IMG/VR virus record: IMGVR_UViG_3300048927_000355
Span: 1-41,089 of that record
Strand: one strand, 5' to 3'
DNA: 41,089 bases
Source of the DNA: a virus
Shown here: positions 1 to 12,766 of the stretch, piece by piece
Position numbering within the stretch: the stretch's first letter is position 1
How the letters are laid out: each line of letters starts with the position of its first letter
The notes under the pieces: generated by a model
Seen by the model: only the letters and a program-made list of their open reading frames with translations
The model's database searches: none
Told to the model about the DNA's origin: nothing
Translations under genes and position numbers: made by a program

Positions 1-252
1 GCGTTGATCCGGGCGCTGGCCGACGCGGAAGGCTTTCCCGTCCCCACGGCCGAGGAGTTCGCCGAACGCATCGAGCGGTCCCTGGACCGGCACGGGTTCG
101 AGGTCCGGACCAAGCATTCCCAGCCCACCGATCGCGATCGGCTGGAGGCCGACATGGTCGGGTTCTTGACCGTCTGCTGGGGTTGCTTCCTCGGACGGCA
201 CGAGCGCAACGTTCAGAACTGCCCGTGCTGCCGGTCGGGTCACACCGGTTGA
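1..252 (+). CDS. Hypothetical protein with C-terminal zinc-ribbon-like cysteines, 5' end outside window
   Basis: The reading frame is open from the first base, so the true start probably lies upstream; a TTG at position 4 is the first possible start seen. The visible part is an acidic, probably helical stretch followed by two cysteine pairs (CWGC and CPCC, about 16 residues apart) near the C terminus, which looks like a small zinc-binding knuckle. I do not recognise a family. The stop codon lies inside an 18-bp operator-like inverted repeat and is followed by a terminator, so this is the last gene of a rightward operon. Confidence 0.55.
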   Translation, partial: ALIRALADAEGFPVPTAEEFAERIERSLDRHGFEVRTKHSQPTDRDRLEADMVGFLTVCWGCFLGRHERNVQNCPCCRSGHTG

Positions 253-266
253 CACTTCACAGTCAA
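249..266. promoter_or_regulatory. Operator-like inverted repeat, perfect copy
   Basis: TTGAC-N8-GTCAA with spacer ACTTCACA. It overlaps the stop codon of the preceding gene and lies just before a terminator. No -10 box follows at a usable distance, so this copy is not part of a promoter. Confidence 0.7.
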
Positions 267-277
267 GAATCAGGGGA

Positions 278-306
278 AGCCCCAGCCGATCCGGCTGGGG
301 CTTTTT
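278..306 (+). terminator. Rho-independent terminator
   Basis: A ten-base stem AGCCCCAGCC / GGCTGGGGCT with a five-base loop is followed by TTTTT. It closes the operon that ends at 252. Confidence 0.85.
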
Positions 307-350
307 CGTGCCCGCTGCCGGGTACACCATGGGACCAGGAGGTGGTTCTC

Positions 351-542
351 GTGGTGAGCTCGGCCGGAGGACGCAAGGGATACGTGGTCCGCTCGCGGCA
401 CAACGTGTATCGGGCCTTGCGCCGCAAGGGGAAGAGTAAGAGCAGCGCGGCCCGGATCGCGAACGCGGGCCGGACGCACGCGGCCCGATCTCGCATGAGC
501 CGTCGCGCCGCTCGTACTAGACGCGAGCGGCACGGCGGTTAG
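351..542 (+). CDS. Small very basic protein with SKSSAARIAN motif
   Basis: The product has 63 residues and starts at GTG 351, chosen because AGGAGGT lies 7-8 bases upstream; in-frame starts further upstream run through the terminator. It is rich in Arg and Lys and carries the motif YRALRRKGKSKSSAARIANA, which resembles short actinophage and actinobacterial proteins of the DUF7218 type (known from memory, not searched). The charge suggests nucleic-acid binding, but this is inference. Its last 26 bases overlap the 3' end of a possible reverse-strand gene. Confidence 0.7.
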   Translation: MVSSAGGRKGYVVRSRHNVYRALRRKGKSKSSAARIANAGRTHAARSRMSRRAARTRRERHGG

Positions 543-702
543 CGTCGCACCGGCGACGGGCTGCGGTCCGGCACTCCCGGCAGTCTCGGTTGTTCGGCCG
601 GTCCTTGCGCCGGTAGGTGTTTGCCTCGGTGAACTCATGGCCGGAGTCGCAATGGGTCTTGGTAGCTGTTACTGTGAAGTTGACAGAAGGGAGGCCGGAC
701 AC
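517..702 (-). CDS. Putative zinc-knuckle protein (HNH-endonuclease-tail type)
   Basis: This is a reverse-strand frame of 61 residues from GTG 702. It contains C-x3-H (CDSGH), a FTEANTY segment, then CREC followed by an Arg-rich tail. The same spacing, C-x3-H then C-x2-C with basic residues, occurs at the C terminus of the HNH protein at 1581-2027 (CKYQH ... CRAC), so this may be a free-standing copy of that DNA-binding knuckle or a remnant of an endonuclease. No convincing ribosome binding site is visible and the start abuts the endolysin start on the other strand. It could be a pseudogene. Confidence 0.4.
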   Translation of the reverse strand: MSGLPSVNFTVTATKTHCDSGHEFTEANTYRRKDRPNNRDCRECRTAARRRCDANRRAARV

Positions 703-1584
703 ATGGGATGGATCTTGGTCCCCAGTCTCGTGTCTTTGCGCAACGAGCTGAACCAGCTCTCGCCGAGCCGGGACAAGGCCACGGATGGATCGATCGGTGA
801 CGCGGCACACGCCGCTGAGCCGAGTGACCACAACCCCGACGAGACCGGCACGCCGGAGCGCTACGACTCGGACGGGATCAACGAGGTTCACGCGATCGAC
901 GTGGACAAGGACTTGCGTAAGAGCGGGTGGAACATGACCCGGGTGGTCCGGACCATCGCGGACCGGCACCGGCGCGGGCTGGACAACCGGCTGGAGTACA
1001 TCATCTGGGACCGGCAGATCGCCAGCCGGGGCAGCGGGTGGGCCTGGGTCGGGTACGACGGCTCCAACCCGCACACCGACCACGCGCACTTCAGCGCCCG
1101 CTATGGCAGCGGGAGCGGCACGGGCAACCCGGAGAACATCACGGCCCCCTGGGGGCTGCTGGACGAGGAGGACGACGATTTTATGGGCTTGTTCAAGGAT
1201 CTTGACGAGTACAAGGCGTACCAGGTCAGCCTGATCCAGAACCAGGTGCCGGACGCGATGAAGAAGGCGCTGGCCGACGACGGCGTGGTCCGGCCCAACA
1301 TGCTGGCCGTGGTCGGGGACGGGGTGCGCGAGGAGAAGTGGGACGCGATCCACGCGATCCGGCGCGACGCGGTCTACCAGGCCGCCTCCCCGCAGCGGCA
1401 GGGCGAGATGCGCAACGCCATGGACCTCAGCAAGATCGTGCTCCGTGAGGCCCTGGTGCGCATCCTGAACGCCAAGGAAGGCGACGTGGACGCGGCCAAC
1501 GATCTGCTGGCCCAGACCGCGCTCAAGGAGATGGTCAAGGAGGCGGTCCAGGAGCTGACCGCAGAGGGGAAGCTGAAGGCATGA
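703..1584 (+). CDS. Endolysin, M15-type peptidase
   Basis: A 293-residue lysin. The N-terminal half has the zinc ligands of the D,D-/L,D-peptidase M15 fold as used in phage lysins: His in SDHNPD (about residue 43), Asp in HAIDVD (about 66) and the NPHTDHAHFS motif (about 122-131). The C-terminal 130 residues are helical and charged and may bind the wall or form oligomers. ATG 703 is preceded by AGGGAGG. A second ATG near 1184 (residue 161), at the domain boundary and after GAGGAGG, could give a separately translated C-terminal fragment, as known for some lysins; here that is inference. The stop overlaps the next gene by ATGA, and a holin candidate follows the HNH gene. Confidence 0.85.
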   Translation: MGWILVPSLVSLRNELNQLSPSRDKATDGSIGDAAHAAEPSDHNPDETGTPERYDSDGINEVHAIDVDKDLRKSGWNMTRVVRTIADRHRRGLDNRLEYIIWDRQIASRGSGWAWVGYDGSNPHTDHAHFSARYGSGSGTGNPENITAPWGLLDEEDDDFMGLFKDLDEYKAYQVSLIQNQVPDAMKKALADDGVVRPNMLAVVGDGVREEKWDAIHAIRRDAVYQAASPQRQGEMRNAMDLSKIVLREALVRILNAKEGDVDAANDLLAQTALKEMVKEAVQELTAEGKLKA

Positions 1585-2027
1585 CCACAGCCCAGCCGAT
1601 GGCCGAACGGTTCTGGCCCAAGGTCGCGGTCTGGGACTGCTGGGAGTGGCTGGCTAGTCGGAACGCGTTCGGGTACGGCCAGTTTTACGACGGCCGGACC
1701 ATGCGGCTGGCACACGTGATCGCGTATGAGTTGCTGGTTGGCCCTGTCCCCGAGGGCTTGGATCTCGATCACGTGTGCCGGAACCGGTCATGCGTCAATC
1801 CGGATCACCTGGAGCCGGTCACGCGTCGCGAGAACATCGCTCGGGGTTCGTCACACGTGGCCCGTCAGATCGCCCAAGATGAGTGCAAGTACCAGCACCC
1901 GTTGGACGGGGTCAACTCCTATGTCGATAGCCGGGGACGGCGAATCTGCCGGGCCTGTGTGCGTCGTCGGGTGAGCGACCAGCGGGCCAAGGGTGTCCGC
2001 TACGACCGAAAGAAGGTCTCAACGTGA
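1581..2027 (+). CDS. HNH endonuclease
   Basis: A 148-residue protein with the HNH motif LDLDHVCRNRSCVNPDHLEP (about residues 60-79), the catalytic His at 64 and the usual Asn/His at 73/76. A C-terminal zinc knuckle, C102-x3-H ... C123-x2-C126, is followed by a basic tail. It overlaps the endolysin stop by ATGA and its own stop overlaps the next GTG. A free-standing HNH gene wedged between lysin and holin is typical of selfish homing endonucleases in phages; a packaging role is less likely at this place. Confidence 0.85.
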   Translation: MTTAQPMAERFWPKVAVWDCWEWLASRNAFGYGQFYDGRTMRLAHVIAYELLVGPVPEGLDLDHVCRNRSCVNPDHLEPVTRRENIARGSSHVARQIAQDECKYQHPLDGVNSYVDSRGRRICRACVRRRVSDQRAKGVRYDRKKVST

Positions 2028-2386
2028 CAAATGTTCGTATATTCGGGCGCGAGCCCGCGCTGATCATCTCGTGGCTGGCCGCGCTCGGCATGCTCGCCGG
2101 GGGCCTGAACATCTCGTGGCTCAATGCCGGGCAGACCACGGTAATCGTGGCCGCGATCGCCGCGTTGCTGCTGGCGCTCACCACCCGGCCGGTCGGGCCG
2201 GGCCTGTTCGTCACGGCGTCGGCGGCGCTGTTCGCGGTGTTCGCCGAGTACGGCATGACGGTCAGCGAGGCCACCGTCAGCGCGGTTGGTGGCGTCATCA
2301 TGGCCAGCTTCGCGCTGTTCGGTGTGCGGCCTCAGGTGACCCCGGCTGCCGACCCCCGGCCGATCGAGGGCCGCCAAGTAGTCTGA
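2024..2386 (+). CDS. Holin candidate, membrane protein
   Basis: A 120-residue protein with three to four hydrophobic segments (about 11-31, 38-54, 58-76 and 84-100) and a short polar tail. The start is GTG 2024, which overlaps the HNH stop (GTGA). Size, topology and position two genes after the endolysin in one operon support a holin that releases the lysin; no family signature was recognised. It ends the operon, with a strong hairpin at 2404-2431. Confidence 0.7.
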   Translation: MTNVRIFGREPALIISWLAALGMLAGGLNISWLNAGQTTVIVAAIAALLLALTTRPVGPGLFVTASAALFAVFAEYGMTVSEATVSAVGGVIMASFALFGVRPQVTPAADPRPIEGRQVV

Positions 2387-2403
2387 GCACGCGATGAAGC
2401 AGG

Positions 2404-2431
2404 AAGGCCCGGACCATCAGGTCCGGGCCTT
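2404..2431. terminator. Bidirectional terminator between convergent genes
   Basis: A perfect twelve-base stem AAGGCCCGGACC / GGTCCGGGCCTT with loop ATCA. It lies between the holin gene (+) and the reverse gene ending at 2447 and is followed at once by an operator-like repeat. Confidence 0.8.
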
Positions 2432-2432
2432 C

Positions 2433-2450
2433 TTGACGTTGCACCGTCAG
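2433..2450. promoter_or_regulatory. Operator-like inverted repeat, one mismatch
   Basis: TTGAC GTTGCACC GTCAG. It abuts the terminator hairpin and contains the stop codon of the reverse-strand gene 2447-2623. Confidence 0.6.
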
Positions 2451-2623
2451 AACGGGTGTGGCCCATCGTCGGTCCGGTGCGTGTCATCGATCTTGTCCGG
2501 GTCGAGCTCGCCCTTTTGGGTCATCGTAGCCCGGGCCTGCTTGGTGAACCGGGCTTCCATCTTCCGGTCGTACGGGTCATCGATGGAGCCGATATCCATC
2601 TTGTCGTCGTTCTTGCGGGGCAC
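2447..2623 (-). CDS. Hypothetical small charged protein
   Basis: The product has 58 residues, rich in Asp and Lys, starting MPRKNDDKMDIGSIDDPYD and ending DDGPHPF. The start is GTG 2623, two bases after the stop of the upstream reverse gene, so it is probably translated by coupling. No family recognised. It is the last gene of the reverse operon driven from 2812-2840. Confidence 0.55.
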   Translation of the reverse strand: MPRKNDDKMDIGSIDDPYDRKMEARFTKQARATMTQKGELDPDKIDDTHRTDDGPHPF

Positions 2624-2625
2624 GA

Positions 2626-2805
2626 TCAGTCACCCTTCCGGACCTTGCGAAGGAACATCTGATGGGTCTGGGTGAGCAGAACGCTCCCGCGCGACGTGCG
2701 GACGAACAGTTCACCGGGCAACGGCTTGTTGCGGGCCGACTCGGCCGGGTCGTAGTTCTCGCCGGTGAGACCGGTCTTGGGCAGATCCTTCTTGTCGCTG
2801 GCCAT
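2626..2805 (-). CDS. Hypothetical small protein, leaderless
   Basis: The product has 59 residues, starts MASDKKDLPKTGLTGENYD and has a basic C terminus. ATG 2805 lies 6 bases after the -10 box TAAAGT (2812-2817), so transcription should begin at or next to the start codon and no Shine-Dalgarno sequence is needed. First gene of a two-gene reverse operon. Function unknown. Confidence 0.65.
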   Translation of the reverse strand: MASDKKDLPKTGLTGENYDPAESARNKPLPGELFVRTSRGSVLLTQTHQMFLRKVRKGD

Positions 2806-2811
2806 GACTCT

Positions 2812-2840
2812 ACTTTACAGGCATGACAGCTAGGTGTCAA
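2812..2840 (-). promoter_or_regulatory. Sigma70-type promoter with operator over the -35 box
   Basis: On the reverse strand: -35 TTGACA (2835-2840), 17-base spacer, -10 TAAAGT (2812-2817). It drives the genes at 2805-2447. Confidence 0.8.
2823..2840. promoter_or_regulatory. Operator-like inverted repeat, one mismatch
   Basis: ATGAC AGCTAGGT GTCAA. Its right arm is the -35 box of the reverse promoter at 2812-2840, so a bound protein would block RNA polymerase. Confidence 0.65.
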
Positions 2841-2853
2841 ACCGGGGAGCAGG

Positions 2854-3210
2854 TCAGGAGCCGTCGTCCCAGAAGGTCGGCACCGGCTCAGGCACCGTCG
2901 CGACGGCGGCGGGCTGCTCGGCCGGGCCGGTGTTCGCCGCGACCAGGCCATAGCCTGCGCCGCGCAGGTACTCGGCCAGGTAGCCCGCGAGCGGGAGGTG
3001 TTCCGGCCGTTCCTCGCCCATCGAGGAGATCAGCGCGCGCCGGATGACGGCCACCGTCTCCTGGTCGCTCAGCAGGGTGGAGGACACCAGGCTGGACATG
3101 CGGGCCATCTCCTGCTGGATCGAGTTCAGGGCGGGCTGGACGGTCTCCAGCACGGCACCGGCGAGTCCGGAGAGGTCCAGGCTGACCGAGCCGCTGACTT
3201 GGCTTCTCAT
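2854..3210 (-). CDS. Hypothetical protein
   Basis: The product has 118 residues; the middle (about 15-75) is probably helical and amphipathic, and the C terminus is rich in Pro and Ala. ATG 3210 is preceded by GGAGGCAGGAAGG. The promoter is the reverse half of the overlapping divergent pair at 3250-3278. The gene ends 14 bases before the -35 box of the next reverse promoter. Family not recognised. Confidence 0.65.
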   Translation of the reverse strand: MRSQVSGSVSLDLSGLAGAVLETVQPALNSIQQEMARMSSLVSSTLLSDQETVAVIRRALISSMGEERPEHLPLAGYLAEYLRGAGYGLVAANTGPAEQPAAVATVPEPVPTFWDDGS

Positions 3211-3244
3211 TCTTGCCTTCCTGCCTCCCCGTCCGGGTTGGCGC

Positions 3245-3274
3245 TTGCAACCTTACCGTCATGACTGGTACGTT
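3245..3274 (+). promoter_or_regulatory. Forward half of a face-to-face promoter pair
   Basis: -35 TTGCAA (3245-3250), 18-base spacer, -10 TACGTT (3269-3274). It drives the gene at 3302. Because TTGCAA is its own reverse complement, both -35 boxes read the same, and this promoter overlaps the reverse one almost fully. Confidence 0.6.
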
Positions 3275-3278
3275 GCAA
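3250..3278 (-). promoter_or_regulatory. Reverse half of a face-to-face promoter pair
   Basis: On the reverse strand: -35 TTGCAA (3273-3278), 17-base spacer, -10 TAAGGT (3250-3255). It drives the gene 2854-3210. Only one of the two overlapping promoters can hold a polymerase at a time. Confidence 0.65.
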
Positions 3279-3301
3279 CCCAGCGACGAGGGGAGCAGGT
3301 C

Positions 3302-3535
3302 ATGGCAAAGCTGGTGGTTCAGCACGACGAGGACCCGGCGATCGCGATCGTGCTGGAGACGGTGCCCGAGGGCACGCCAGGCCGGGCGCACGGCACGTAC
3401 GGCACGTGCACGCAATGCGGCTGGCCGATGCACCGATGGAGCGAGGAGCACGCAGTGCTGGCCGCTGAGCGGCACGTGGACTCGCACGAGGCGCTGGTCA
3501 GCGGGATCGATCCGTCCAGCGTCGTACGGGGGTGA
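3302..3535 (+). CDS. Small C2H2-like zinc protein
   Basis: The product has 77 residues. ATG 3302 follows GGGGAGCAGG. A CTQCGW pair (C-x2-C) is followed about 16-20 residues later by two histidines (RHVDSH), a classical C2H2 spacing that may form a single zinc finger. It is the first gene after the divergent promoter at 3245-3274 and ends at a hairpin. Its target is unknown. Confidence 0.65.
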   Translation: MAKLVVQHDEDPAIAIVLETVPEGTPGRAHGTYGTCTQCGWPMHRWSEEHAVLAAERHVDSHEALVSGIDPSSVVRG

Positions 3536-3564
3536 AAGAGGCTACCCCCAGGGATGCCTCTTTC
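3534..3564 (+). terminator. Possible terminator hairpin
   Basis: GAAAGAGGC / GCCTCTTTC, a nine-base stem with a 13-base loop that includes the stop codon of the preceding gene; only a short T run. A GGGACC / GGTCCC hairpin (3567-3586) and a TCCCGCTC / GAGCGGGA hairpin (3611-3631) follow. Confidence 0.5.
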
Positions 3565-3655
3565 GGGGGACCACATCAGAGGTCCCTCCACCTGCGGAAA
3601 CATCATAAGGTCCCGCTCATGGGGAGCGGGAGAACTCATAGGACAGGGGTAGGCA

Positions 3656-4066
3656 ATGAGCCAGCACAGCGAGCGTACGCAGAACGGGCCATCACGGGTC
3701 AGCATCGTGGCCGGGTTCGGACTGCTGACGACGGTCATGACGGTGACCGCCTGGATCGGGATCGGGGCTGAGAACTGGCGTGAGGTAGCCGGGCTGGTTC
3801 TGGGCGTGTTCGCCTCAGTCCTGGTGCTCGCCCAGGTCACGGCCAGGGTGGTGGAGCGGATGGAGGTCCAGGAGCGCAAGCGGCGCAAGGCCTCGGAAGG
3901 GCTCTGGAACCGGTTGCGGGAGCCGGTCGGCCTGCCACAGATGGGGGACGAGGACGACCTGACGACCCGGCTCGACCCGGGACCGCTGCGGGCCGCGCCG
4001 GTGTTCAGGAGCGAGCGGGAGCGCGCGGCCTGGCTCGATGCGGAGACCGAGGTCATCCGGCACTGA
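3656..4066 (+). CDS. Two-span membrane protein
   Basis: The product has 136 residues with two hydrophobic segments (about 15-37 and 43-62), then a basic, probably coiled-coil helix (ERMEVQERKRRK) and a charged cytoplasmic-type tail. ATG 3656 has AGGGGT upstream. Being close to the lysis cassette it could be a second holin or spanin-like membrane protein, but no family was recognised. A strong hairpin follows at 4101-4131. Confidence 0.6.
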   Translation: MSQHSERTQNGPSRVSIVAGFGLLTTVMTVTAWIGIGAENWREVAGLVLGVFASVLVLAQVTARVVERMEVQERKRRKASEGLWNRLREPVGLPQMGDEDDLTTRLDPGPLRAAPVFRSERERAAWLDAETEVIRH

Positions 4067-4100
4067 GCCGTGTAAGTAGTCGGGTTAGGCGTTGATCCTT

Positions 4101-4131
4101 ACGGGGGGACTTCCACAGGAGGTCCCCCCGT
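4101..4131 (+). terminator. Terminator-like hairpin, GGGGGACC family
   Basis: Stem ACGGGGGGAC / GTCCCCCCGT with outer and inner extensions, followed by TTGTGTGTTT. A second GGTCCCCCC copy lies at 4167-4175 without a partner. Confidence 0.6.
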
Positions 4132-4186
4132 TGTGTGTTTGCCCAGGTGAGGGGACGTGCGAGGAGGTCCCCCCGCAGATCAGGAC

Positions 4187-4214
4187 TTGACTTCGCAGCC
4201 ATGCCTGGTAAGCT
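4187..4214 (+). promoter_or_regulatory. Promoter for a leaderless gene
   Basis: TTGACT (4187-4192), 16-base spacer, TAAGCT (4209-4214) with TG-type extension (TGGTAAGCT). The ATG at 4221 lies 6 bases after the -10 box. Confidence 0.65.
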
Positions 4215-4220
4215 GTGGGC

Positions 4221-4445
4221 ATGGCAACCAACGAGACGACCAGACGGATCGCCAAGGTCCAGGCATTCGAGCTCACCGACTACGACCGACTCGTTGACGA
4301 GCACGGGGAATGGATCGGAACGATTATGGGAGCACCTGACGTTGCACCGTCAAAAGTGACGTTTTCCCTGATCATTGGGGGTGGGCAATCCATCGTCCGG
4401 ACGGTCCGGCCGTCGTCCTGGGTGCGGATCGAGATCGCGCGATGA
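4221..4445 (+). CDS. Hypothetical protein, leaderless
   Basis: The product has 74 residues, predicted mostly beta from residue 30 on; no family recognised. ATG 4221 is preferred because it is at the expected transcription start of the promoter at 4187-4214; no Shine-Dalgarno is present. It contains an operator-like repeat at 4336-4353 and overlaps the next gene by ATGA. Confidence 0.6.
   Translation: MATNETTRRIAKVQAFELTDYDRLVDEHGEWIGTIMGAPDVAPSKVTFSLIIGGGQSIVRTVRPSSWVRIEIAR
4336..4353. promoter_or_regulatory. Operator-like inverted repeat inside a gene, one mismatch
   Basis: CTGAC GTTGCACC GTCAA; the spacer is identical to that of the copy at 2433-2450. Confidence 0.55.
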
Positions 4446-4672
4446 GTGCCGGATACATGCGCCGGTGCTCCGGCAAGAAGCGGCAGAGCGAGGCCGAGGC
4501 CAAGCAGCATCGTAAAAAGCTGGCGGCCAAGCTGATGAAGCCGATCAGCGCGTTCAGCGTCTATCCCTGTGACCAGTGCCTGGGGCACCACGTGGGCGGC
4601 GCGGCCAACGCGTTCATCACCCGAACACGGCGCAGCGGAAAACGGCCGAACAAGAGAATGCGCGGACGCTGA
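4442..4672 (+). CDS. Small basic protein with Cys/His cluster
   Basis: The product has 76 residues, strongly basic throughout, with CDQC and HH close together (about residues 43-50), possibly zinc binding. The start overlaps the previous stop (ATGA). Probable nucleic-acid binder by charge; no family recognised. It ends shortly before a terminator. Confidence 0.6.
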   Translation: MSAGYMRRCSGKKRQSEAEAKQHRKKLAAKLMKPISAFSVYPCDQCLGHHVGGAANAFITRTRRSGKRPNKRMRGR

Positions 4673-4688
4673 GCAATCATCCTAGGAC

Positions 4689-4721
4689 GGCCCCCATCGT
4701 TGCTGGTGGGGGCCGCTTTTT
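4689..4721 (+). terminator. Rho-independent terminator
   Basis: Stem GGCCCCCATC / GGTGGGGGCC (one G-T pair) with loop GTTGCT, then GCTTTTT. Confidence 0.8.
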
Positions 4722-5101
4722 CGGTTGTGGAGACAACTTCACCGGCACGACTTTTCAGACATTGAAGGTCTGCCTGGGCGTGTCGCCGCTGGGAAACCTA
4801 ACGGTGCTAGATATTGGCCAGACGACTTCACACGGGCCCCACAACCCCGGGTTGACTGACGATGTACCAGTTTGCCCGATAATCCCTCTGGTGCGTCCTG
4901 AGTGCCCCAGTTTGCCCATGGGGGACCTAGCTGAGCTTCTCAATACCCCAATTTTTCAGGGAACACCTTTTGTCTACGTATCCGCGCACACACGTAGACA
5001 CGCGCGAGGCCCTGGAAAAAATCGGGGCCTGGAATCAGTCCCCCGGTCCCCCGGTCCCCTAGCGGATCTGCCGATTCTGTATCGCGTGTTAGGATGCGTA
5101 G
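4722..5101. other. Non-coding stretch upstream of the head-gene operon
   Basis: No convincing gene is seen. It holds a direct repeat CCAGTTTGCCC (4867-4877 and 4907-4917), the 133-bp element at 4920-5052, a second GGTCCCC copy, and the -10 box TAGGAT (5090-5095) of the leaderless gene at 5102. A long forward frame running through it from 4576 has no coding character before 5392. Confidence 0.6.
4920..5052. promoter_or_regulatory. Upstream element, copy A (nested inverted repeats)
   Basis: Outer arms GGGGGACC (4920-4927) and GGTCCCCC (5045-5052). Conserved block AGCTTCTCAATACCCCA (4934-4950). Internal perfect stem TGTCTACGT / ACGTAGACA (4971-4979 / 4992-5000). A partner copy at 37470-37603 has the same outer arms, the same block at the same offset and an internal stem with changed but still paired bases. 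The end of the element lies 50 bp before the start codon of the first gene of the operon that includes the portal. I infer a binding platform for a regulator or a structured RNA. Confidence 0.65.
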
Positions 5102-5395
5102 ATGACGAGATTCGAGGGCTTGCGGACACTGCGCATCGCGCCGCTGACGGGGGCCAATCTCCGGCTGGTCCTGGAGGACATGCAGAAGGGTCCAGGCTGG
5201 ATCCCCTCAGCCGACCTTTACCGGCACTACGTGTGGATGTGCGAGGAGGACAACCTGGACCCGATGAACCAGAACTCGTTCGGCCGGGAGCTGACCAAGA
5301 TGGGCTACCGCCAGGAGGTCAAGCGCATCGATGGCAAGCTGGTGCGCGGCCGGTTCATCAGCAACAAGGCGTTCCGGGCCGAGGTGGACGAATGA
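5102..5395 (+). CDS. Winged-helix-like protein resembling primase C-terminal domains
   Basis: The product has 97 residues. The segment PSADLYRHYVWMCEEDNL ... NSFGRELTKMGY followed by a basic strand pair resembles the winged-helix domain found at the C terminus of phage/plasmid primase-helicases. The start is leaderless: TAGGAT at 5090-5095, ATG 5102. It is the first gene after upstream element copy A and overlaps the next gene by ATGA. It could be a regulator or a DNA-packaging accessory; the large terminase is not in the window. Confidence 0.65.
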   Translation: MTRFEGLRTLRIAPLTGANLRLVLEDMQKGPGWIPSADLYRHYVWMCEEDNLDPMNQNSFGRELTKMGYRQEVKRIDGKLVRGRFISNKAFRAEVDE

Positions 5396-5733
5396 CCGAG
5401 ATCTTCAAGTCGATCGTCCTGGCAGATGTGGCGCTCACTTTGCGCGACCTGGAGCCAGGTCCGCACCTGGCCCGGGATCTCTACTGGAAGTACATCGAGA
5501 CGGTGCGGGCTCAGGGCCGGGCGGGCGGATACGCCAGTCCCTTTGGCAAGGCGATGGCGCACCTCGGTTGCGTCCGGAAGTACTCCCCGGAGCACGGCAC
5601 CAAGGCATGGTTCATCGACCCAGCCGGGATGGCCGAACGCTGGCCCTCGCTCCCCTGGTCCAAGGTGACAGTGAAGTGTCAAGTGGACGCTGAGGCCCAG
5701 ATGTCCGCCGAGACCGTAGGATGGGACGCGTGA
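5392..5733 (+). CDS. Second winged-helix-like protein
   Basis: The product has 113 residues. ATG 5392 overlaps the previous stop (ATGA). ARDLYWKYIETVRAQ ... SPFGKAMAHLG repeats the DLY-x2-Y ... FG-x3-x2-G pattern of the preceding gene, so the two are probably diverged paralogues that might form a heterodimer. An operator-like repeat lies at 5665-5682 near the 3' end. The last bases overlap the next gene's start. Confidence 0.6.
   Translation: MTEIFKSIVLADVALTLRDLEPGPHLARDLYWKYIETVRAQGRAGGYASPFGKAMAHLGCVRKYSPEHGTKAWFIDPAGMAERWPSLPWSKVTVKCQVDAEAQMSAETVGWDA
5665..5682. promoter_or_regulatory. Operator-like inverted repeat inside a gene, one mismatch
   Basis: GTGAC AGTGAAGT GTCAA. It lies 35 bp before the TAGGAT box at 5717. 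Confidence 0.55.
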
Positions 5734-6041
5734 ACATCCCGGTCTGGCTGGCCCTGCTGATCTACGCGCTCGCCGTGGCGCGCCTGACCGGGCTCGTGGT
5801 GGCCGACGCGATCACCGAGCCGGTCCGGGACCGGCTCGTGGGGTGGCTGGACGACAGCCCCGGCTCCAGCGGCGAGTGGTTCGCCACCCTGATCCAGTGT
5901 CCCTGGTGCGCCGGGATGTGGATCTCGCTGGCCGCCGCCCCCCTGATCTGGTTCTGGTGGGACTCGCCCGTCATGCTGATACCGGCCATCGCTCTGGCCT
6001 TCTCCCAGGTCGCTGGGTCCATCTCCAACCTCGGGAGGTAA
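5730..6041 (+). CDS. DUF1360-type membrane protein
   Basis: The product has 103 residues. A first hydrophobic helix (about 4-25), a linker, the signature CPWCAGMWIS (about 57-66), which is typical of DUF1360 proteins, and two more hydrophobic helices. GTG 5730 is chosen because TAGGAT (5717-5722) places the transcript start there; ATG 5721 overlaps that box. DUF1360 genes are common next to portal genes in actinophages; function unknown. Seven bases before the portal stop/start junction sits GGGAGG. Confidence 0.8.
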   Translation: MNIPVWLALLIYALAVARLTGLVVADAITEPVRDRLVGWLDDSPGSSGEWFATLIQCPWCAGMWISLAAAPLIWFWWDSPVMLIPAIALAFSQVAGSISNLGR

Positions 6042-6043
6042 CC

Positions 6044-7987
6044 GTGGCTCTCCGCCGTCCACGAGCCCCACAGCCGTCCCAGACGCTCGCTCCCCCATTG
6101 GCGCGCTACCCGGCCGCCCTCAGCGCCGCTACGGCGATCGTGGAGCTCTCCGGCAACTCCTCCTGGAAGACCTGGAAGTTCGGCAACCGCGACTGGCAGA
6201 CCGAAGCCTGGCGGCTTTACGACATCATCGGGGAGCTGCACAAGCTGTCCGGCCGGGTCGGCGACAGCCTCTCCCAGGCGCGCCTCTACGTCACCGAGGT
6301 CAGCGAGACCGGCGAGGAGACCGGCGAGATCGAGGACGAGCGGATCCGGCAACTGGCCGCCGTGCCGCTCGGCACCGGCTCCCAGCGCGACGACAACCTC
6401 CGATTGGCGGGCATCGACCTGGCCGTGGGCGGCGAGTGCTGGATCGTCGGTGAGGGCGCAGCGCGCAACCCCGAGCAGGCCAAGGGCTCGTGGTTCGTGG
6501 TCACCGGCTCGGCCTTCAAGCGCGAGGGCGACGACGTGAAGGTCCGCCGTCCCCAGCAGCGCGGCGGGCAGTACCTCACCCTGGCCGATGGCGTGGACAT
6601 CCTGATCCGCTGCTGGCGGCCACACCCCAACGACACCGACCAGGCCGACAGCTTCACCCGCTCGGCCATCGTGCCGCTGCGGGAGATCGAACTCCTGACC
6701 AAGCGCGAGTTCGCCGAGCTGGACTCCCGGCTCACCGGCGCGGGCATCATGTTCCTGCCCGAAGGTGTCGACTTCCCCCGGGGACCGGACGACCCGGACG
6801 GCATGGCCGGGTTCATGGCCTACATCCAGCGGGCCGCCGCCGCGAGCATGGCCGACCAGAGCCGGGCCAGTGCGATGGTGCCGATCATGGCCACCGTGCC
6901 GGACGAGATGATCCAGTACCTGGACCAGCTCAAGCCGATCAACTTCTGGTCCGAGCTGTCGGCCGAGATCACGCCGATGAAGGACAAGGCGATCGAGCGC
7001 CTGGCGTCCATGGCCGAGATCCCGGCCGAGGTGCTGACCGGCATCGGGGACGCGAACCACTGGACGGCCTGGCTGATCTCCGACGAGGGGATCCGCTGGA
7101 TCCGGGGTTACCTGGGCCTGGTCGCGGACGCACTCACCCGGGGCTTCCTGCGGCGCGCCCTGGAGTCGATGGGTGTCACCGACCCCGAGCGGTACGCGTT
7201 CGCGTTCGACACCTCGGCGCTGGCCAGCAAGCCCAACCGGCTGGACGAGGCCGAGCGGCTGCACGACCGGGGCCTGATCTCCGACGAGGAGCTGGTGAAG
7301 GCCGCCGCCTTCTCGATCGACCAGATGCCGGATCCGGGCCAGCGCGCCGAGCAGATCATCTATCGCCTGGTGATGGCCCAGCCGGATCTCGCCCTGGACC
7401 CTGAGGTCCAGCGGGTGCTCGGCCTGCCCAAGATCCAGAGCGTCGGCCTGCCCCCGACCGCCGATCAGAACACCGATGGCGAGGACGGGGGGACCTCTGG
7501 AGACGGTCCCCCCAACGATGGCGAGGACCCGGACCCACCGGCCGACGACGGTCAGGCGCGTGCGATCACCGCTGCCCTGGACGATCGGATCCGCTCGATT
7601 CAGGCGACGCGCAGCACGGCCCCGGTCTCGCCGCAGGCCGTGTTCAACGCGTCGGCCAAGCTGATGGTGTACCGGGCGCTGGAGCTGGCCGGTGGGCGGC
7701 TGACCACGCCGCAGGAGCGCCGGGGCCGCTGGGCTCAGGTGCCACGTCACGAGCTCCATCACCACGTCGGGCCGATCACGCCGGAGAAGGCGCTGAAGGT
7801 GATCGAGGGGGCCTGGACTCACCTCCCCTTGGCGGCGGCTGATCTCAATGTTGATGCCGAGGCTCTGCACTATGTGCTGGAGTCTTACGTGACTGAGTTG
7901 CTGACCCGTGGGCTCCGGCATCACGACGACATGCTCTATGCCACGCTCGCCATGCCGAACCGGGGAGCCGGTCTGGTCCCGGCATGA
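6044..7987 (+). CDS. Portal protein
   Basis: The product has 647 residues. GTG 6044 follows GGGAGGTAACC. The N-terminal LSGNSSWKTWKFGNRDW region, the alternating strand/helix body and the long helical stem region (about 220-460) match actinophage portal proteins, and it is followed in order by MuF, protease and capsid genes. The dodecameric portal sits at one vertex of the head and is the channel for DNA packaging and ejection. The C-terminal part after residue 480 has an acidic, Gly/Pro-rich linker and then a helical domain; the linker's DNA forms a GGGGGGACC / GGTCCCCCC hairpin (7487-7513). Confidence 0.9.
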   Translation: MALRRPRAPQPSQTLAPPLARYPAALSAATAIVELSGNSSWKTWKFGNRDWQTEAWRLYDIIGELHKLSGRVGDSLSQARLYVTEVSETGEETGEIEDERIRQLAAVPLGTGSQRDDNLRLAGIDLAVGGECWIVGEGAARNPEQAKGSWFVVTGSAFKREGDDVKVRRPQQRGGQYLTLADGVDILIRCWRPHPNDTDQADSFTRSAIVPLREIELLTKREFAELDSRLTGAGIMFLPEGVDFPRGPDDPDGMAGFMAYIQRAAAASMADQSRASAMVPIMATVPDEMIQYLDQLKPINFWSELSAEITPMKDKAIERLASMAEIPAEVLTGIGDANHWTAWLISDEGIRWIRGYLGLVADALTRGFLRRALESMGVTDPERYAFAFDTSALASKPNRLDEAERLHDRGLISDEELVKAAAFSIDQMPDPGQRAEQIIYRLVMAQPDLALDPEVQRVLGLPKIQSVGLPPTADQNTDGEDGGTSGDGPPNDGEDPDPPADDGQARAITAALDDRIRSIQATRSTAPVSPQAVFNASAKLMVYRALELAGGRLTTPQERRGRWAQVPRHELHHHVGPITPEKALKVIEGAWTHLPLAAADLNVDAEALHYVLESYVTELLTRGLRHHDDMLYATLAMPNRGAGLVPA

Positions 7988-7992
7988 TCGGG

Positions 7993-8022
7993 TTGGACAC
8001 CTGGAAGCCGTGACGGTAAAGT
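7993..8022 (+). promoter_or_regulatory. Promoter for the zinc-domain gene array
   Basis: TTGGAC (7993-7998), 18-base spacer, TAAAGT (8017-8022); ATG 8029 is 6 bases further on. The spacer includes TGACGGTAAAGTTGAC, related to but not matching the 18-bp operator. Confidence 0.65.
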
Positions 8023-8028
8023 TGACCC

Positions 8029-8181
8029 ATGCTGTGTGAGAGATGTCAGGGAGCTGGCCGGGACCTCGTTCCCTGCTCGAATTGCAAGGGCCACCGCAAC
8101 GGTTGCCGTCACTGCGTGCGTGGCCAGCAGGAGATTGCGTGCCCGCGCTGTAGCGGCACGGGCAACCGGAGGAAGTCCTGA
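8029..8181 (+). CDS. Zinc-domain array gene 1 (DnaJ-type CxxC repeats)
   Basis: The product has 50 residues with four cysteine pairs: CERCQGAG, CSNCKG, CRHC and CPRCSGTG. This is the complete set of a DnaJ cysteine-rich domain (two zinc sites) without the J domain or peptide-binding domains. Leaderless ATG after TAAAGT. It is the first of nine consecutive paralogues between portal and MuF; its stop overlaps the next start (TGATG). Confidence 0.8.
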   Translation: MLCERCQGAGRDLVPCSNCKGHRNGCRHCVRGQQEIACPRCSGTGNRRKS

Positions 8182-8330
8182 TGGCTACATGCCGTAGCTG
8201 CGGAGGCAGTGGACGACAGTCGATCCAGTGCGAGCGACGGCACTCCTCGGACCGGGTCTGTCCCAAGTGCGGGAACACGGGCCGGATCTCCTATCCGTGC
8301 GTCGAGTGCTCAGGCTCGGGGCACTCCTGA
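8181..8330 (+). CDS. Zinc-domain array gene 2
   Basis: The product has 49 residues: CRSCGGSG, CERRH (a C/H pair in place of a Cys pair), CPKCGNTG and CVECSGSG. The second site is the degenerate one. Start and stop are both one-base overlaps (TGATG), so translation should be coupled along the array. Confidence 0.75.
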   Translation: MATCRSCGGSGRQSIQCERRHSSDRVCPKCGNTGRISYPCVECSGSGHS

Positions 8331-8479
8331 TGGCGGCCACGTGCGGCCGGTGTCTGGGTACCGGCAAAGAGATGGTGGTCTGTTACAAGTGCAACGGCTC
8401 CGGCAAGAACTGCGGAGCCTGTGAGCACGGGTTCCGGGTCCGGATCTGCGATCGGTGCGGCGGGACGGGGCAGCGATGA
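8330..8479 (+). CDS. Zinc-domain array gene 3
   Basis: The product has 49 residues: CGRCLGTG, CYKCNGSG, CGAC and CDRCGGTG, with all four pairs intact. The third pair lacks the GxG, as in genes 1 and 4. It overlaps the next gene by ATGA. Confidence 0.75.
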   Translation: MAATCGRCLGTGKEMVVCYKCNGSGKNCGACEHGFRVRICDRCGGTGQR

Positions 8480-8622
8480 AGGACAACCCGTGCGGCCGGT
8501 GCTCCGGCGTCGGCAAAGAGTGGATCCGGTGCGGTGACTGTGACGGCAAGGGGTGTCAGCACTGTGTCCTGGGTTACAGGACGATGATTTGCTCGCTGTG
8601 CACCGGGACCGGGAGGCACTGA
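8476..8622 (+). CDS. Zinc-domain array gene 4
   Basis: The product has 48 residues: CGRCSGVG, CGDCDGKG, CQHC and CSLCTGTG. It is closest in layout to gene 3 (same KE-W/M spacing between pairs 1 and 2), so these two probably share a recent ancestor. One-base overlap with the next start. Confidence 0.75.
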   Translation: MKDNPCGRCSGVGKEWIRCGDCDGKGCQHCVLGYRTMICSLCTGTGRH

Positions 8623-8819
8623 TGACGGGCCGGAGAAGACCACGGCCGAGCGGGCCGCGCGGAACGTGCCGGGGCTGTGGTGGCGATGGGTTCCGTGCAC
8701 TGACTTGCCAGCTCTGCCACGGCAAGGGGTGCAAATCGGGCAACGAGTGCCGGGCGGGCCGGGTCAACGTGGCCTGCAACGTGTGCCTGGGAACCGGCCG
8801 GGACGGAGAGGACCGGTGA
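8622..8819 (+). CDS. Zinc-domain array gene 5, with basic N-terminal extension
   Basis: The product has 65 residues. A basic leader (MTGRRRPRPSGPRG) precedes CRGCGGDG, CQLCHGKG, a C-x5-C pair (CKSGNEC) and CNVCLGTG. The leader could bind nucleic acid. It overlaps the next gene by GTGA. Confidence 0.75.
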   Translation: MTGRRRPRPSGPRGTCRGCGGDGFRALTCQLCHGKGCKSGNECRAGRVNVACNVCLGTGRDGEDR

Positions 8820-9001
8820 GCCCGGACGCGCGGACCAAGCCGTGCCGGACCTGCGGAGCCAGCGGTTATATCTGGTACACCTGCTCGACCTGTACCGGCA
8901 CGGGGCTGGTCAGCGGGAGAAACTGCAAAGTCTGTTTCGGCAACGGTGGGCGTAACGGCAATTGCTTCACCTGCGGTGGACGGGGAGAGGTTGAACGATG
9001 A
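8816..9001 (+). CDS. Zinc-domain array gene 6
   Basis: The product has 61 residues: CRTCGASG, CSTCTGTG, CKVCFGNG and CFTCGGRG, all four with the full CxxCxGxG or near it. Start GTG 8816; ATGA overlap with the next gene. Confidence 0.75.
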   Translation: MSPDARTKPCRTCGASGYIWYTCSTCTGTGLVSGRNCKVCFGNGGRNGNCFTCGGRGEVER

Positions 9002-9156
9002 AGACCAAGAACGTGTGTCAGGTCTGCGGTGGTCAGGGCCGGATCTGGCTCAACTGCCAGATGCGCTGTGGCGGCAAGAGGGATTGCATCGTCTGCTCCG
9101 GGATGGGCAAGGTCTACACGACGTGTACCAAGTGCAAGGGGTCGGGCTACTCATGA
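8998..9156 (+). CDS. Zinc-domain array gene 7
   Basis: The product has 52 residues: CQVCGGQG, a C-x3-C pair (CQMRC), CIVCSGMG and CTKCKGSG. From here on the second pair has three residues between the cysteines, a change shared with genes 8 and 9, so 7-9 form a subgroup. Confidence 0.75.
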   Translation: MKTKNVCQVCGGQGRIWLNCQMRCGGKRDCIVCSGMGKVYTTCTKCKGSGYS

Positions 9157-9320
9157 GCGGCAATCGCAAACCGGATCCGTGCCGCAGGTGCCAGGGCCGG
9201 GGAACCGTCGATGCCCGGTGCACCCAGAACTGCGGGCGCGATCGCAAGTGCCCGGTATGTCGGGGCAGCGGGCACACCTTGGTCACATGCACGTCGTGCT
9301 GGGGAAGGGGGAATCTGTGA
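9153..9320 (+). CDS. Zinc-domain array gene 8
   Basis: The product has 55 residues: CRRCQGRG, CTQNC, CPVCRGSG and CTSCWGRG. It shares a 45-bp identical segment (9195-9239) with gene 9 (9362-9406) and most of the rest, pointing to a recent tandem duplication. ATGA start, GTGA end overlap. Confidence 0.75.
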   Translation: MSGNRKPDPCRRCQGRGTVDARCTQNCGRDRKCPVCRGSGHTLVTCTSCWGRGNL

Positions 9321-9406
9321 GCAGGCCGAAGGACGTTCCCGCGCAGTGCCCGATGTGCCACGGCCGGGGAACCGTCGATGCCCGGTGCACCCAGAACTGC
9401 GGGCGC
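9195..9406 (+). repeat. Tandem duplication within the zinc-domain array
   Basis: Two 45-bp identical segments, 9195-9239 and 9362-9406, 167 bp apart, each encoding RGTVDARCTQNCGR. The flanks are similar but diverged. Confidence 0.8.
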
Positions 9407-9487
9407 AACCGTAAGTGCGGCCAGTGCGGTGGCAGCGGGCACACCCTGGTCACGTGCACCCGGTGCTGGGGGAGTGGGGTCAAATGA
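9317..9487 (+). CDS. Zinc-domain array gene 9
   Basis: The product has 56 residues: CPMCHGRG, CTQNC, CGQCGGSG and CTRCWGSG. Start GTG 9317; the stop overlaps the MuF start by ATGA, tying the array to head-protein translation. Confidence 0.75.
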   Translation: MSRPKDVPAQCPMCHGRGTVDARCTQNCGRNRKCGQCGGSGHTLVTCTRCWGSGVK

Positions 9488-11121
9488 CCGAGCCGGTCTG
9501 GAACGGCCGGGGCCGCGATCCGTGGCTCCCCCAGCGCCTGGAGGCACGGCTGGAGATCGCGACGATAGAGCGGCAGGTCCGTGCCGCTGTCTGGGCCGCG
9601 CTCTCCGATTGGCTGGTCCAGACCGCCCGGCGCGTCCTGAGAGGGACGACCGAGGTCCCGGCCCCGGATGCGATCTGGGCGCGCGTGCCCGCCTGGCGCG
9701 AGGCCGTGGAGCTCATTCTGAACGGCGAGATCCTGAAGGCGCTCGGTGTGGCGTTCGAGCGGATCCTGGGGCCGGGCTCCGGCTGGGAAGGCCGGGAGTT
9801 CACCACGAACTACCTGGCCGAGGTGCGCAACCGGATGGTCCGGATCCCGGACGAGGTGTTCGACCTGGTGGCCGGGCAGATCTCTCAGGGGGTCAACCTG
9901 GGTGACTCGATCCCTGAGCTGGCCATGCGAGTTGACAATGTCCTGTCAACGACCAAGTCGGAGCGCTGGCGCAACCGGGCTGTGGTCGTGGCCCGGACCG
10001 AGGCTATCGGTGCGATGAACGCCGGTCGGCTGGAAGCGTTCAAGATCGTGGCCGAGGACGAGGACGGCCCGATGGAGAAGCTGTGGCTGGCCACCGAGGA
10101 CAGCCGGACCCGGGAGACACATCAGGAGGCTGACGGGCAACGGGTCGCTCTCGCTTCCCCGTTCTCGGTCGGCCTGGCCCAGCTCCAGTTTCCGGGCGAC
10201 CCGAGTGGTCCTCCCCAGGAAGTGATCCAGTGCGTGATCGAGTCAACGAAGGTCGCGTGGCCTAGGCAAGCGTTGTACGGGTCTACCCGCCGACGCCATT
10301 ACGGCCCGCTGGTCCAGCTCATCACGGCTGAAGGGCACGACCTCACCGTCACCCCGAATCACCCGGTACTCACCCCCACCGGGTATATCCCGGCTGGTTT
10401 GCTGAGCAAAGGTCAGGACGTCCTGGCCACCCCGGAGCCCCCATCCCCAGAGGTACACAACGCTCCATTCTGCGTCGAGGAGATTCACAGTGCGCTGAGC
10501 CAAGCGGGGGAGTCTGAGCGGGTGATGGGCAGCCGAATGGATTTCCACGGCGACGGTTCCCCCGATGACGAAGTCGAGATTGTAAGCGCCAACGGCGACC
10601 TGACTCGATACGTCAACCCCCGTGGATTCAGCGAGCGCTTGAAAACGGGCTTCGTCCGGCTGGAGGACCGAACGCGTCCTCTGTCTGGTTTGAGCAATTC
10701 CGTGGTTACGCTGACTCCAGTCCCCGGTGGGCCGGACGACATGTTTACGGGCCGCCTCGTTGGCCTGAGCGGTGAGGGCGCGCCGGTCGGCGGGGGAGAG
10801 ACGGGCGAGGCGCAAGCGGTTCGCTTCGCTTCCGCTCCGGACCTCCAGGTTGAGGGCGATCAAGTGCCGGACGATGGTCGGACGGCTGAGTCCGATTTCC
10901 CGGCTCATCTTCAGTACGCTCTGGCCAGCGGCATGGCGGTAACGAAGATCGTCGATGTCAATAGGCTTTCGGGCAACCACTGGGTATACAACCTTTCCAC
11001 CTCAGACCATTGGTTCACCGGCAATGGTATCGCATTGCACAACTGTCGGTGCACGATGCTCCTCGTGGAACCCGGAGAAGACGTGGACCTGAGCAACCGC
11101 CAGATGCGCCGCAACCGGTAG
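9484..11121 (+). CDS. MuF-like minor head protein containing an intein
   Basis: The full product has 545 residues; ATG 9484 overlaps the previous stop (ATGA). The host (extein) part is about 274 residues and ends in the conserved MuF motif: TEDSRTRETHQEADGQ, then PGDPSGPP, then CRCTMLL. MuF proteins are a few copies per head, next to the portal, and act in head morphogenesis or ejection. The intein, residues 250-520, splits the motif right before CRC, so splicing is needed to restore it. An operator-like repeat lies at 9932-9949. The next gene is the capsid protease. Confidence 0.9.
   Translation: MTEPVWNGRGRDPWLPQRLEARLEIATIERQVRAAVWAALSDWLVQTARRVLRGTTEVPAPDAIWARVPAWREAVELILNGEILKALGVAFERILGPGSGWEGREFTTNYLAEVRNRMVRIPDEVFDLVAGQISQGVNLGDSIPELAMRVDNVLSTTKSERWRNRAVVVARTEAIGAMNAGRLEAFKIVAEDEDGPMEKLWLATEDSRTRETHQEADGQRVALASPFSVGLAQLQFPGDPSGPPQEVIQCVIESTKVAWPRQALYGSTRRRHYGPLVQLITAEGHDLTVTPNHPVLTPTGYIPAGLLSKGQDVLATPEPPSPEVHNAPFCVEEIHSALSQAGESERVMGSRMDFHGDGSPDDEVEIVSANGDLTRYVNPRGFSERLKTGFVRLEDRTRPLSGLSNSVVTLTPVPGGPDDMFTGRLVGLSGEGAPVGGGETGEAQAVRFASAPDLQVEGDQVPDDGRTAESDFPAHLQYALASGMAVTKIVDVNRLSGNHWVYNLSTSDHWFTGNGIALHNCRCTMLLVEPGEDVDLSNRQMRRNR
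9932..9949. promoter_or_regulatory. Operator-like inverted repeat inside the MuF gene, perfect copy
   Basis: TTGAC AATGTCCT GTCAA, in the N-terminal extein coding region. Confidence 0.65.
10231..11043 (+). mobile_element. Intein coding region (271 residues) in the MuF gene
   Basis: It starts at Cys (TGC 10231) and ends at His-Asn (AAC 11043), followed by Cys +1 (TGT 11044). Block A CVIESTKVAWPRQALYG, block B LTVTPNHPVLT with Thr and His three apart, and C-terminal blocks VYNLSTSDHWF and GIALHN are all present, so the splicing (Hint) domain should be active. Between them about 160 residues contain RMDFHGDG, a motif I associate with phage Hint proteins. No LAGLIDADG or HNH endonuclease is read in this sense; instead the opposite strand carries one. 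GC at third positions falls here compared with the neighbours, which fits transfer or double coding. Confidence 0.9.
10243..10980 (-). CDS. Putative homing endonuclease encoded antisense within the intein
   Basis: The product has 245 residues. GTG 10980 is preceded on the reverse strand by GAGGTGGAAAGG, about 11 bases away. A helix-turn-helix (about residues 8-45, KMSREIGLSRPTIVRHL) and a basic linker precede a nuclease-like segment (about 110-180): AYNLDFVIGGTVAVEIHSAAHH and then SVVYLWGWG. The Asp136 ... Glu146-x-His148 arrangement with flanking hydrophobic strands resembles the Vsr/DUF559-like PD-(D/E)xK fold, also used by the EDxHD homing endonucleases. The whole gene lies inside the intein, start in block F/G and stop in block A. 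That position implies it spreads the intein. Confidence 0.75.
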   Translation of the reverse strand: MVARKPIDIDDLRYRHAAGQSVLKMSREIGLSRPTIVRHLIALNLEVRSGSEANRLRLARLSPADRRALTAQANEAARKHVVRPTGDWSQRNHGIAQTRQRTRSVLQPDEARFQALAESTGVDVSSQVAVGAYNLDFVIGGTVAVEIHSAAHHPLRLPRLAQRTVNLLDAEWSVVYLWGWGLRGGQDVLTFAQQTSRDIPGGGEYRVIRGDGEVVPFSRDELDQRAVMASAGRPVQRLPRPRDLR

Positions 11122-11143
11122 CCTGGTCAACGAGGAGGCAGTC

Positions 11144-12538: not shown

Positions 12539-12541
12539 GAC

Positions 12542-12697: not shown

Positions 12698-12737
12698 CAC
12701 CGTTAGGTAAGAGCCGGGCCACGAACCGGCACGCGGA

Positions 12738-12766
12738 GAAGGCCCCCACCGATGGTGGGGGCCTTC
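12738..12766. terminator. Bidirectional terminator
   Basis: A perfect 13-base stem GAAGGCCCCCACC / GGTGGGGGCCTTC with a three-base loop, between convergent genes ending at 12697 (+) and 12777 (-). Confidence 0.8.

Follow-up and report, generated by a model that had tools for sequence, protein, structure and literature searches.

A usually two-copy family of palindromic DNA elements upstream of leaderless-type late promoters in relatives of Actinoplanes phage phiAsp2

Repeated or palindromic sequences with a regulatory or replicative role are known from several systems. The nutL/nutR sites of phage lambda and the putL/putR sites of HK022 are antitermination sites that act as RNA downstream of a promoter, oriL and oriS of HSV and ori and crr of P4 are palindromic or iteron origins, and MITEs are small elements with TIR-like ends that occasionally occupy new places. 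In cluster O mycobacteriophages, AT-rich stretches beside repeats have been called plausible origins (PMC4351075). Here we describe a palindromic element in phiAsp2-like phages that, as judged from comparison of their genomes, is a real, conserved and usually two-copy DNA element family, and for which we found no published account in the openly licensed literature searched.

The window, by which we mean the whole 41,089-base virus record analyzed here, is kin to Actinoplanes phage phiAsp2 (AY576796), with structural genes running mostly rightward from 5.1 to 37.5 kb. Two of its stretches, copy A and copy B, are homologous palindromic elements that each lie directly 5' of a leaderless-type promoter, and they align at 78% identity across 88 bp, with E 6e-13 in a regional comparison. 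Downstream of A lies gene 5102, followed by the portal and head genes; downstream of B lies gene 37652, followed by a methyltransferase and a glucosyltransferase gene. The features of the two regions are as follows.

4688-4715, plus strand: terminator-like hairpin with T-rich tail, apart from the element, between the upstream operon and A (consensus match only)
4918-5061, plus strand: element copy A (initially bounded at 4920-5052; nhmmer 4920-5061, E 6.5e-13, the copy itself being part of the profile)
4920-4927 / 5045-5052, plus strand: outer arms of A, with further GGTCCCC units to 5061
4934-4950, plus strand: 17-base block AGCTTCTCAATACCCCA in A, lineage-specific
4946-4961 / 5010-5027, plus strand: middle stem of A, CCCCAATTTTTCAGGG / CCCTGGAAAAAATCGGGG
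from about 4950, plus strand: T-rich patch of A
4971-4979 / 4992-5000, plus strand: inner stem of A, TGTCTACGT / ACGTAGACA
5090-5095, plus strand: -10-like TAGGAT of a leaderless-type promoter, 6 nt before the ATG at 5102
5102-5395, plus strand: first gene after A, encoding a 97-aa RFX/Pox_D5/Orc-like winged helix (Pas1 ortholog, 44%)
5392-5682, plus strand: second small gene after A (Pas2 ortholog), aligned as a diverged winged-helix relative, with no such Pfam match of its own
37465-37608, plus strand: element copy B (nhmmer 37467-37606, E 5.6e-11, the copy itself being part of the profile)
37465-37491 / 37582-37608, plus strand: outer arms of B, 27 nt, 89% complementary
37484-37500, plus strand: 17-base block AGCTTCTCAATACCCCA in B, at the same offset as in A
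37522-37529 / 37544-37551, plus strand: inner stem of B, TGTATACG / CGTATACA
37640-37645, plus strand: -10-like TAAGGT, 6 nt before the ATG at 37652, with GACATGCCCGCC upstream of it, which fits the GAGATGYCC late-promoter class
37652-38329, plus strand: first gene after B, encoding a glycosyltransferase (Pas33 ortholog, 61%)

The initial annotation had proposed two matching copies composed of these parts, and both read as it described. The 17-base block does sit at one offset in the two copies, and it is not expected by chance, with a mean of 0.04 matches at 3 mismatches and two matches in 0 of 100 shuffles. The proposed compensatory change in the internal stem also holds, as the paired position differs between the inner stems of A and B while pairing is kept. 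Its outer arms are present, with bounds that fall short of the 27-nt arms of B and of the tandem right arm of A, and the spacing counted from its own bounds is 37 bp to TAGGAT and 49 bp to the ATG for A, and 36 bp to TAAGGT and 48 bp to the ATG for B; from the extended ends at 5061 and 37608 the distances to the ATG are 40 bp (A) and 43 bp (B). The motif GGGGGACC occurs 12 times on both strands of the window against 5.8 expected, so this arm sequence taken alone is weak evidence. Compared with shuffles of the same 144 nt, the fold of copy A is moderately unusual (z-scores of -2.9 as RNA and -2.3 and -3.2 for the two DNA strands) and that of copy B strongly so (-7.4 as RNA, -5.8 and -6.2 as DNA). 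Just upstream of A, CAGTTTGCCC repeats at 4868-4877 and 4908-4917 resemble the ATATCTGGTTTGCCC-like repeats that flank the elements of G001 and copy 3 of G009, and are possibly another site.

The same architecture recurs at the same two places in relatives. The loci compared were three further glycosyltransferase relatives, then 18 tail-protein and 47 portal loci taken from alignments; dropping L072 and L083, swapping L049 for the joined phiAsp2 end and adding the window gives a portal set of 46. With an nhmmer profile built mostly from its own members, the element is found upstream of the portal operon (place A) in 39 of 46 sequences and upstream of the glycosyltransferase (place B) in 13 of 13, counts that include the window, phiAsp2 and near-duplicates (L044/L046, L047/L048 and L055/L074, and L023/L024 at place B). 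Most of these copies, some of them under another name (L050, L068 and the phiAsp2 and G001 copies), are within the profile and their matches are not independent; copies outside the profile are those of L042, L053, L062, L065 and L076 at place A, those of G023 and G025 at place B, and both copies of G017, G021 and G022. Seven of the 46 portal regions gave no profile match (L044, L046, L070, L079, L075, L078 and L086). Only about 1 kb of upstream sequence is present in L044 and L046, the genomes of L075 and L078 (G009 and G017) carry copies elsewhere, and L086 belongs to G012, which has no copy in its whole contig, so that its glycosyltransferase place is empty as well.

Copy number is largely kept as well. 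Seventeen contigs contain both places (the window, phiAsp2, G001, G002, G004-G012, G017 and G021-G023; the search of G005 and G007 covered 60,000 bases of 60,124 and 60,785), and 15 of them hold exactly two copies, with three in G009 and none in G012; the A copy of G023 was missed by the profile and found by a repeat scan. The phages that share these home places have portal proteins with about 63-78% identity to that of the window. G009 has no element at place A: one of its copies is embedded in frame in the pas55 primase-polymerase, in the interdomain linker, and another, very large and nested, lies after the terminase. In G017 one copy lies between pas66 and pas72. PhiAsp2 itself has both copies, one before pas33 and one before pas1, the latter split by the ends of record AY576796, which fall inside the element; perhaps the hairpin broke the assembly or marks a physical end. 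A cos/pac reading of these ends was set aside, as several relatives have terminal repeats and hence assemble as circles. Beyond this group, neither a portal query nor an arm pattern revealed prophages in the GTDB genomes, and blastn of the L064 element against cultured phages gave only matches near E 0.9.

These departures from the home places bear on the notion of a mobile or parasitic palindrome, a MITE-like element bounded by GGGGGGA...TCCCCCC ends and able to copy itself inside a genome. Terminal inverted repeats are present, copies are homogenized, and the pas55 linker, the site after the terminase and the new place in G017 all show that copies can change location. We nevertheless consider such an element quite improbable, given that nearly all two-place contigs hold two copies at homes shared across diverged phages and that no target-site duplication or empty site could be established, the pas55 linker of G009 being too variable to align one.

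What varies between phages is the sequence itself. Elements span about 115-250 bp and typically start with GGGGGGA and end with TCCCCCC, often as tandem GGGGGGACY units, and the arms enclose a CACCTAYRCRYGT-like block, GARAAA, a T-rich patch and a GCGCGCG/ACACGCGTATACAC tract. Outside the G-rich units the arms differ between phages and still pair, perfectly so over 56 bp in L082, 49 in L057, 41 in L067 and 38 in L054; in an alignment of 21 chosen elements of similar length, used as alifold input, two or more Watson-Crick types occur at 15 of 18 consensus arm pairs. The 17-base block was expected by the initial annotation to be a conserved signature, and this found no support, since the equivalent block in most relatives reads CACCTAYRCRYGT or similar. 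The only other exact matches to AGCTTCTCAATACCCCA in IMG/VR are two near-identical stretches on seemingly unrelated contigs, which speaks against the 17-mer as a family marker; a short exact block in one genome can thus be a lineage-specific part of a conserved architecture. The initial annotation had also named free drift of block, arms and spacing in relatives as an outcome that would count against it: the letters of block and arms do drift, whereas architecture, copy number and spacing are largely kept.

Turnover proceeds in step within a phage. An element's own partner is its best blastn match in 9 of 11 genomes and by core similarity takes first rank for 12 of the 16 pairs (permutation p 5e-5, the lowest value attainable), the exceptions being G005, G010, G011 and the 35667 pair; four of the 16 pairs join different contigs of one metagenome that are assumed to be one phage, and one consists of G009's B and linker copies. 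The core lies on the plus strand in 38 of 39 A copies with a match and is flipped relative to its arms in L060/G007 A, and for the copy relocated in G017 the reverse strand gives the higher score (54 vs 43 bits). Template switching between inverted repeats produces both arm homogenization and spacer inversion, as described for short repeats in yeast genes (PMC8604942). Perfect arms and the core flip are probably helped by polymerase template switching between the arms, which may account for them without RNA selection. The family is unusual in that sequence turns over while shape, number and place largely stay, where cis sites usually keep their sequence.

At the home places the element stands at a fixed, short distance from a promoter. 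A TAnnnT-N5-8-RTG arrangement occurs within 110 bp downstream in all 27 A copies tested (those with a clear repeat, the match in L054 being doubtful), compared with 325 among 10,400 random stretches, and transcription could still also enter from further upstream. Further home-place copies have such a leaderless-type promoter in 8 of 9 cases (G009 B, G017 B, G021 B, G022 A and B, G023 A and B, and G025 B), the A copy of G021 having none downstream within 110 bp. At place B, where the promoters of one set were read by eye, 12 of 13 elements end 38-51 bp ahead of the ATG. The proposal of a dedicated two-copy cassette heading two forward late operons is thereby borne out, in that the element is conserved, keeps its pairing and has a fixed place before leaderless-type promoters. 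Position of the kind expected of an operator or activating site is confined to the home places: within 110 bp to the left or right of the three relocated copies, of which two are in G009 and one in G017, there is no leaderless-type promoter. These relocated copies argue against promoter control, as do GAGATGYCC promoters without an element, and promoter adjacency at A and B may reflect shared ancestry of two loci and not many independent cases. A late-activator site, the example given by the initial annotation, would be one form of such control; against it stand the relocated copies and the elements kept in phages where no winged-helix gene was found. Such GAGATGYCC-N7-12-TAnnnT-ATG late promoters lie near pas22 at 23622 in the window, 14085 in phiAsp2, 17928 in G001 and 29649 in G002.

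Whether the pairing is kept in RNA or in DNA can be addressed through wobble pairs: selection for pairing in RNA would be expected to leave more G:U than A:C on the transcribed strand. In 37 elements with 1,265 Watson-Crick pairs we count 41 G:U and 37 A:C (p 0.73), in a test of unproven power whose control on T-tailed hairpins (G:U 12 vs A:C 7, not significant) was too small, and SRP RNA, intended as a positive control, yielded no usable loci. The count keeps 37 of 59 regions, leaving out duplicates, regions whose best repeat is not the element, those with fewer than 18 pairs and those with spans outside 80-270; it includes L070, which probably has no element and adds 1:1. On the 21-element alignment G:U exceeds A:C by 20 to 10, with the structure fitted on that same strand, and the opposite strand folds at least as well (-31.2 vs -24.9).

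A structured RNA made by read-through from upstream, a put- or nut-like antitermination or processing element heading the two operons, had been suggested for the window and would fit, by analogy, the two co-varying, phage-specific hairpins per genome, the stable RNA folds of A and B, the orientation of the core at place A and the 20:10 ratio. On balance we regard it as unlikely, in view of the missing wobble bias with its underpowered control, the equally good reverse fold, the inverted core of L060/G007 A, the reverse-scoring G017 copy and the G009 copy translated in frame inside pas55, together with the terminator-like site upstream of A, predicted leaderless starts downstream of the element and the lack of any Rfam match to it. 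Absent wobble bias, the inverted core, the reverse-scoring G017 copy and template switching as an alternative source of perfect pairing favor a DNA-level element, without certainty.

A position between operons, and a structure kept while arm sequence varies, would also suit a bidirectional terminator or insulator between transcription units for which only hairpin strength matters. The copies speak otherwise: those read have no T-tract after the right arm, the core is conserved and asymmetric, one copy lies inside an ORF, and A has a separate terminator-like site before it. Neither copy of the window has the hairpin and T-tract of an intrinsic terminator (a scan of 1-20000 lists no site at 4918-5061, and B was assessed by reading), and we judge this explanation the least probable of those weighed here.

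The gene directly after A offers a candidate for a protein that reads the element. The product of gene 5102 scores 26.3 bits against RFX_DNA_binding (cut-off 27) and 22.1 against Pox_D5 (cut-off 21.4) in Pfam, and among 26 aligned proteins three match RFX and two Pox_D5 at E 0.01; matches of Pas1 in PHROGs are primases. Its AF2 model (mean pLDDT 81) has a predicted winged-helix fold, for which Foldseek places the RFX-DBD 1dp7 first (E 4.8e-3, with none below 1e-3) and Cdc6/Orc1 second. VIA-align to 1dp7 gives Z 7.0 and rmsd 2.9 over 69 residues, where Z below 8 can mean a mere common arrangement, and Orc/Cdc6 winged helices and the oriT-binding TcpK tie with 1dp7.

A small winged-helix-type protein, in some cases with two domains, directly follows A in 22 of 26 loci read by alignment, the other four (L051, L061, L069 and L073) having a pas3/DUF1360 gene there instead, and a winged-helix match directly follows A in 16 of 26 contigs, G022 and G023 among them. 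No homolog was found in G001, G004, G009, G012, G015, G017, G020, G021 and G025, of which G015 and G025 are without place A; G001, G004, G009 and G017 retain the element. Away from A, the only winged helix is a Pas1-like frame at 13517-13825 of G024 (oriented), overprinted in another frame on the pas55 interdomain linker, which in G009 contains an element. Element and winged helix co-vary weakly (partial Mantel r 0.17, p 0.014, n 22 of 24, with L056 and L085 left out for broken portal translation), which could be plain linkage. From these patterns the winged-helix protein may read the element, and it is hardly the element's only reason.

The same protein features in a second reading, in which A and B would be an origin-like replication or recombination site used by the phage replication module, with promoter adjacency secondary. 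The elements combine repeated boxes, an AT-rich stretch and dyad symmetry as iteron and palindromic origins do: GGGGGGACY arms are iteron-like, inverted repeats surround an AT-rich patch, and the winged-helix gene often alongside is of Orc/RFX/primase type, in keeping with the primase matches of Pas1 and the second rank of Cdc6/Orc1. The most AT-rich 24 bp fall at offset 21-50 in 29 of 32 copies, with a median percentile of 0.965 (above 0.9 in 20 of 32) relative to random 140-bp stretches, a lenient background as these are mostly coding. Genes pas49 (RecE) and pas55 (primase-DNA polymerase) are both present in 13 of 16 two-place contigs with the element and in the fragment G025, whereas the circular 55.1-kb G012 is without the element and without any match to pas49, pas53 or pas55 while keeping portal (74%), terminase (82%), major tail protein (80%) and glycosyltransferase (70%); the mobility of copies in G009 and G017 would also fit. 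This gene-module link depends on a single negative genome. Of the 16 contigs, the remaining three are incomplete; in the part present, neither gene is seen in the window or G017, and G008 shows pas55 only. The 35-kb fragment G024 contains pas49/53/55 along with other structural genes and has no element in the part present. An origin would also leave the tight spacing to promoters unexplained, and we hold this reading possible, if doubtful.

Several further features of the window and its relatives were recorded alongside. Minus-strand sigma70-type promoters of the form TTGACAC-TTCACAGTCA-GCCTGTAnnT lie at 2812-2849, 12994-13031, 15832-15869 and 16023-16060, with weaker ones at 23154 and 33344, and their conserved spacer is probably an operator; in relatives TTGACAC-type promoters form divergent pairs, for example at 33697-33889 in phiAsp2 and 25361-25542 in G022. 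Long inverted repeats of a third class, including that phiAsp2 stretch, proved to be divergent TTGACA...TAATGT early-type promoters and not the element. GC-skew, considered as an origin marker, switches module-wide and not at A. The Mu F-like head gene at 9415-11121 encodes 568 aa against 274 aa in phiAsp2 Pas6 and may contain an intein, matching Pfam Intein_splicing at E 2.5e-4, which falls short of the curated cut-off. A 133-bp direct repeat (9179-9311 / 9346-9478, 83%) overlaps small cysteine-rich, DnaJ-zinc-finger-like ORFs, a tRNA-Cys with anticodon ACA is predicted at 22975-23047 on the minus strand, and 1581-2027 encodes an HNH endonuclease that may be of the homing type (Pfam HNH_3, E 1.3e-15).

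Taken together, the evidence is compatible with both promoter control and origin-like use, each being more plausible than a structured RNA. Our preferred explanation, advanced tentatively and with an origin-like role almost as probable, is that the element is a DNA-level palindromic protein-binding site that sets the activity of two late leaderless promoters through a phage-specific factor. Each phage would have its own version of the sequence, and we propose that A and B are kept alike because the same phage-specific factor must recognize both. We infer that this factor binds the arms and core just upstream of the -35 region and, once bound, would set the activity of promoter A, for the winged-helix and head genes, and of promoter B, for the glycosyl- and methyltransferases; the RFX/Orc-like winged helix would be the most obvious candidate binder and autoregulator. 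It is a more speculative and rather unlikely thought that the pair represents a class of DNA element not described before, a self-homogenizing palindrome pair that is origin and late-promoter switch in one and couples replication or recombination to late transcription start at two sites. Should the pair act as an origin or as a late switch, it would provide a handle on the timing of replication relative to structural genes in phiAsp2 and its kin, and its dozens of natural variants form a set for finding the protein that reads it.

Set against the closest known systems, the element shares features with each. As with nut and put sites, each of two operons in a genome has its own hairpin-bearing copy, and the copies are phage-specific and co-vary; unlike those sites, the element lies upstream of the predicted promoters, shows no clear RNA strand bias and has one inverted core. 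With the HSV and P4 origins it has in common inverted arms of short repeated boxes, an AT-rich patch, more than one copy, a location in promoter regions and, often, a nearby Orc/primase-type winged helix, whereas its arms differ between close phages and its origin role is putative. We know of no sequence shared between the element and HSV oriL/oriS or P4 ori/crr. It resembles MITEs and MPMEs in being small, with TIR-like ends and occasional new places, and differs in that number and homes are mostly fixed, no target duplication was shown and MPMEs carry an ORF (PMC4351075). Its perfect arms and the flipped L060 core recall the arm homogenization and spacer inversion of template-switch repeats, which reflect a mutational process and not a function, described for short repeats in yeast genes (PMC8604942). 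Cluster O phages likewise are GC-rich actinophages in which palindromes lie between genes and AT-rich stretches adjoin sets of repeats; in Corndog a single invariant palindrome of 17 bp is present 34 times (PMC4351075), whereas the phages described here carry two elements of greater length with hypervariable arms.
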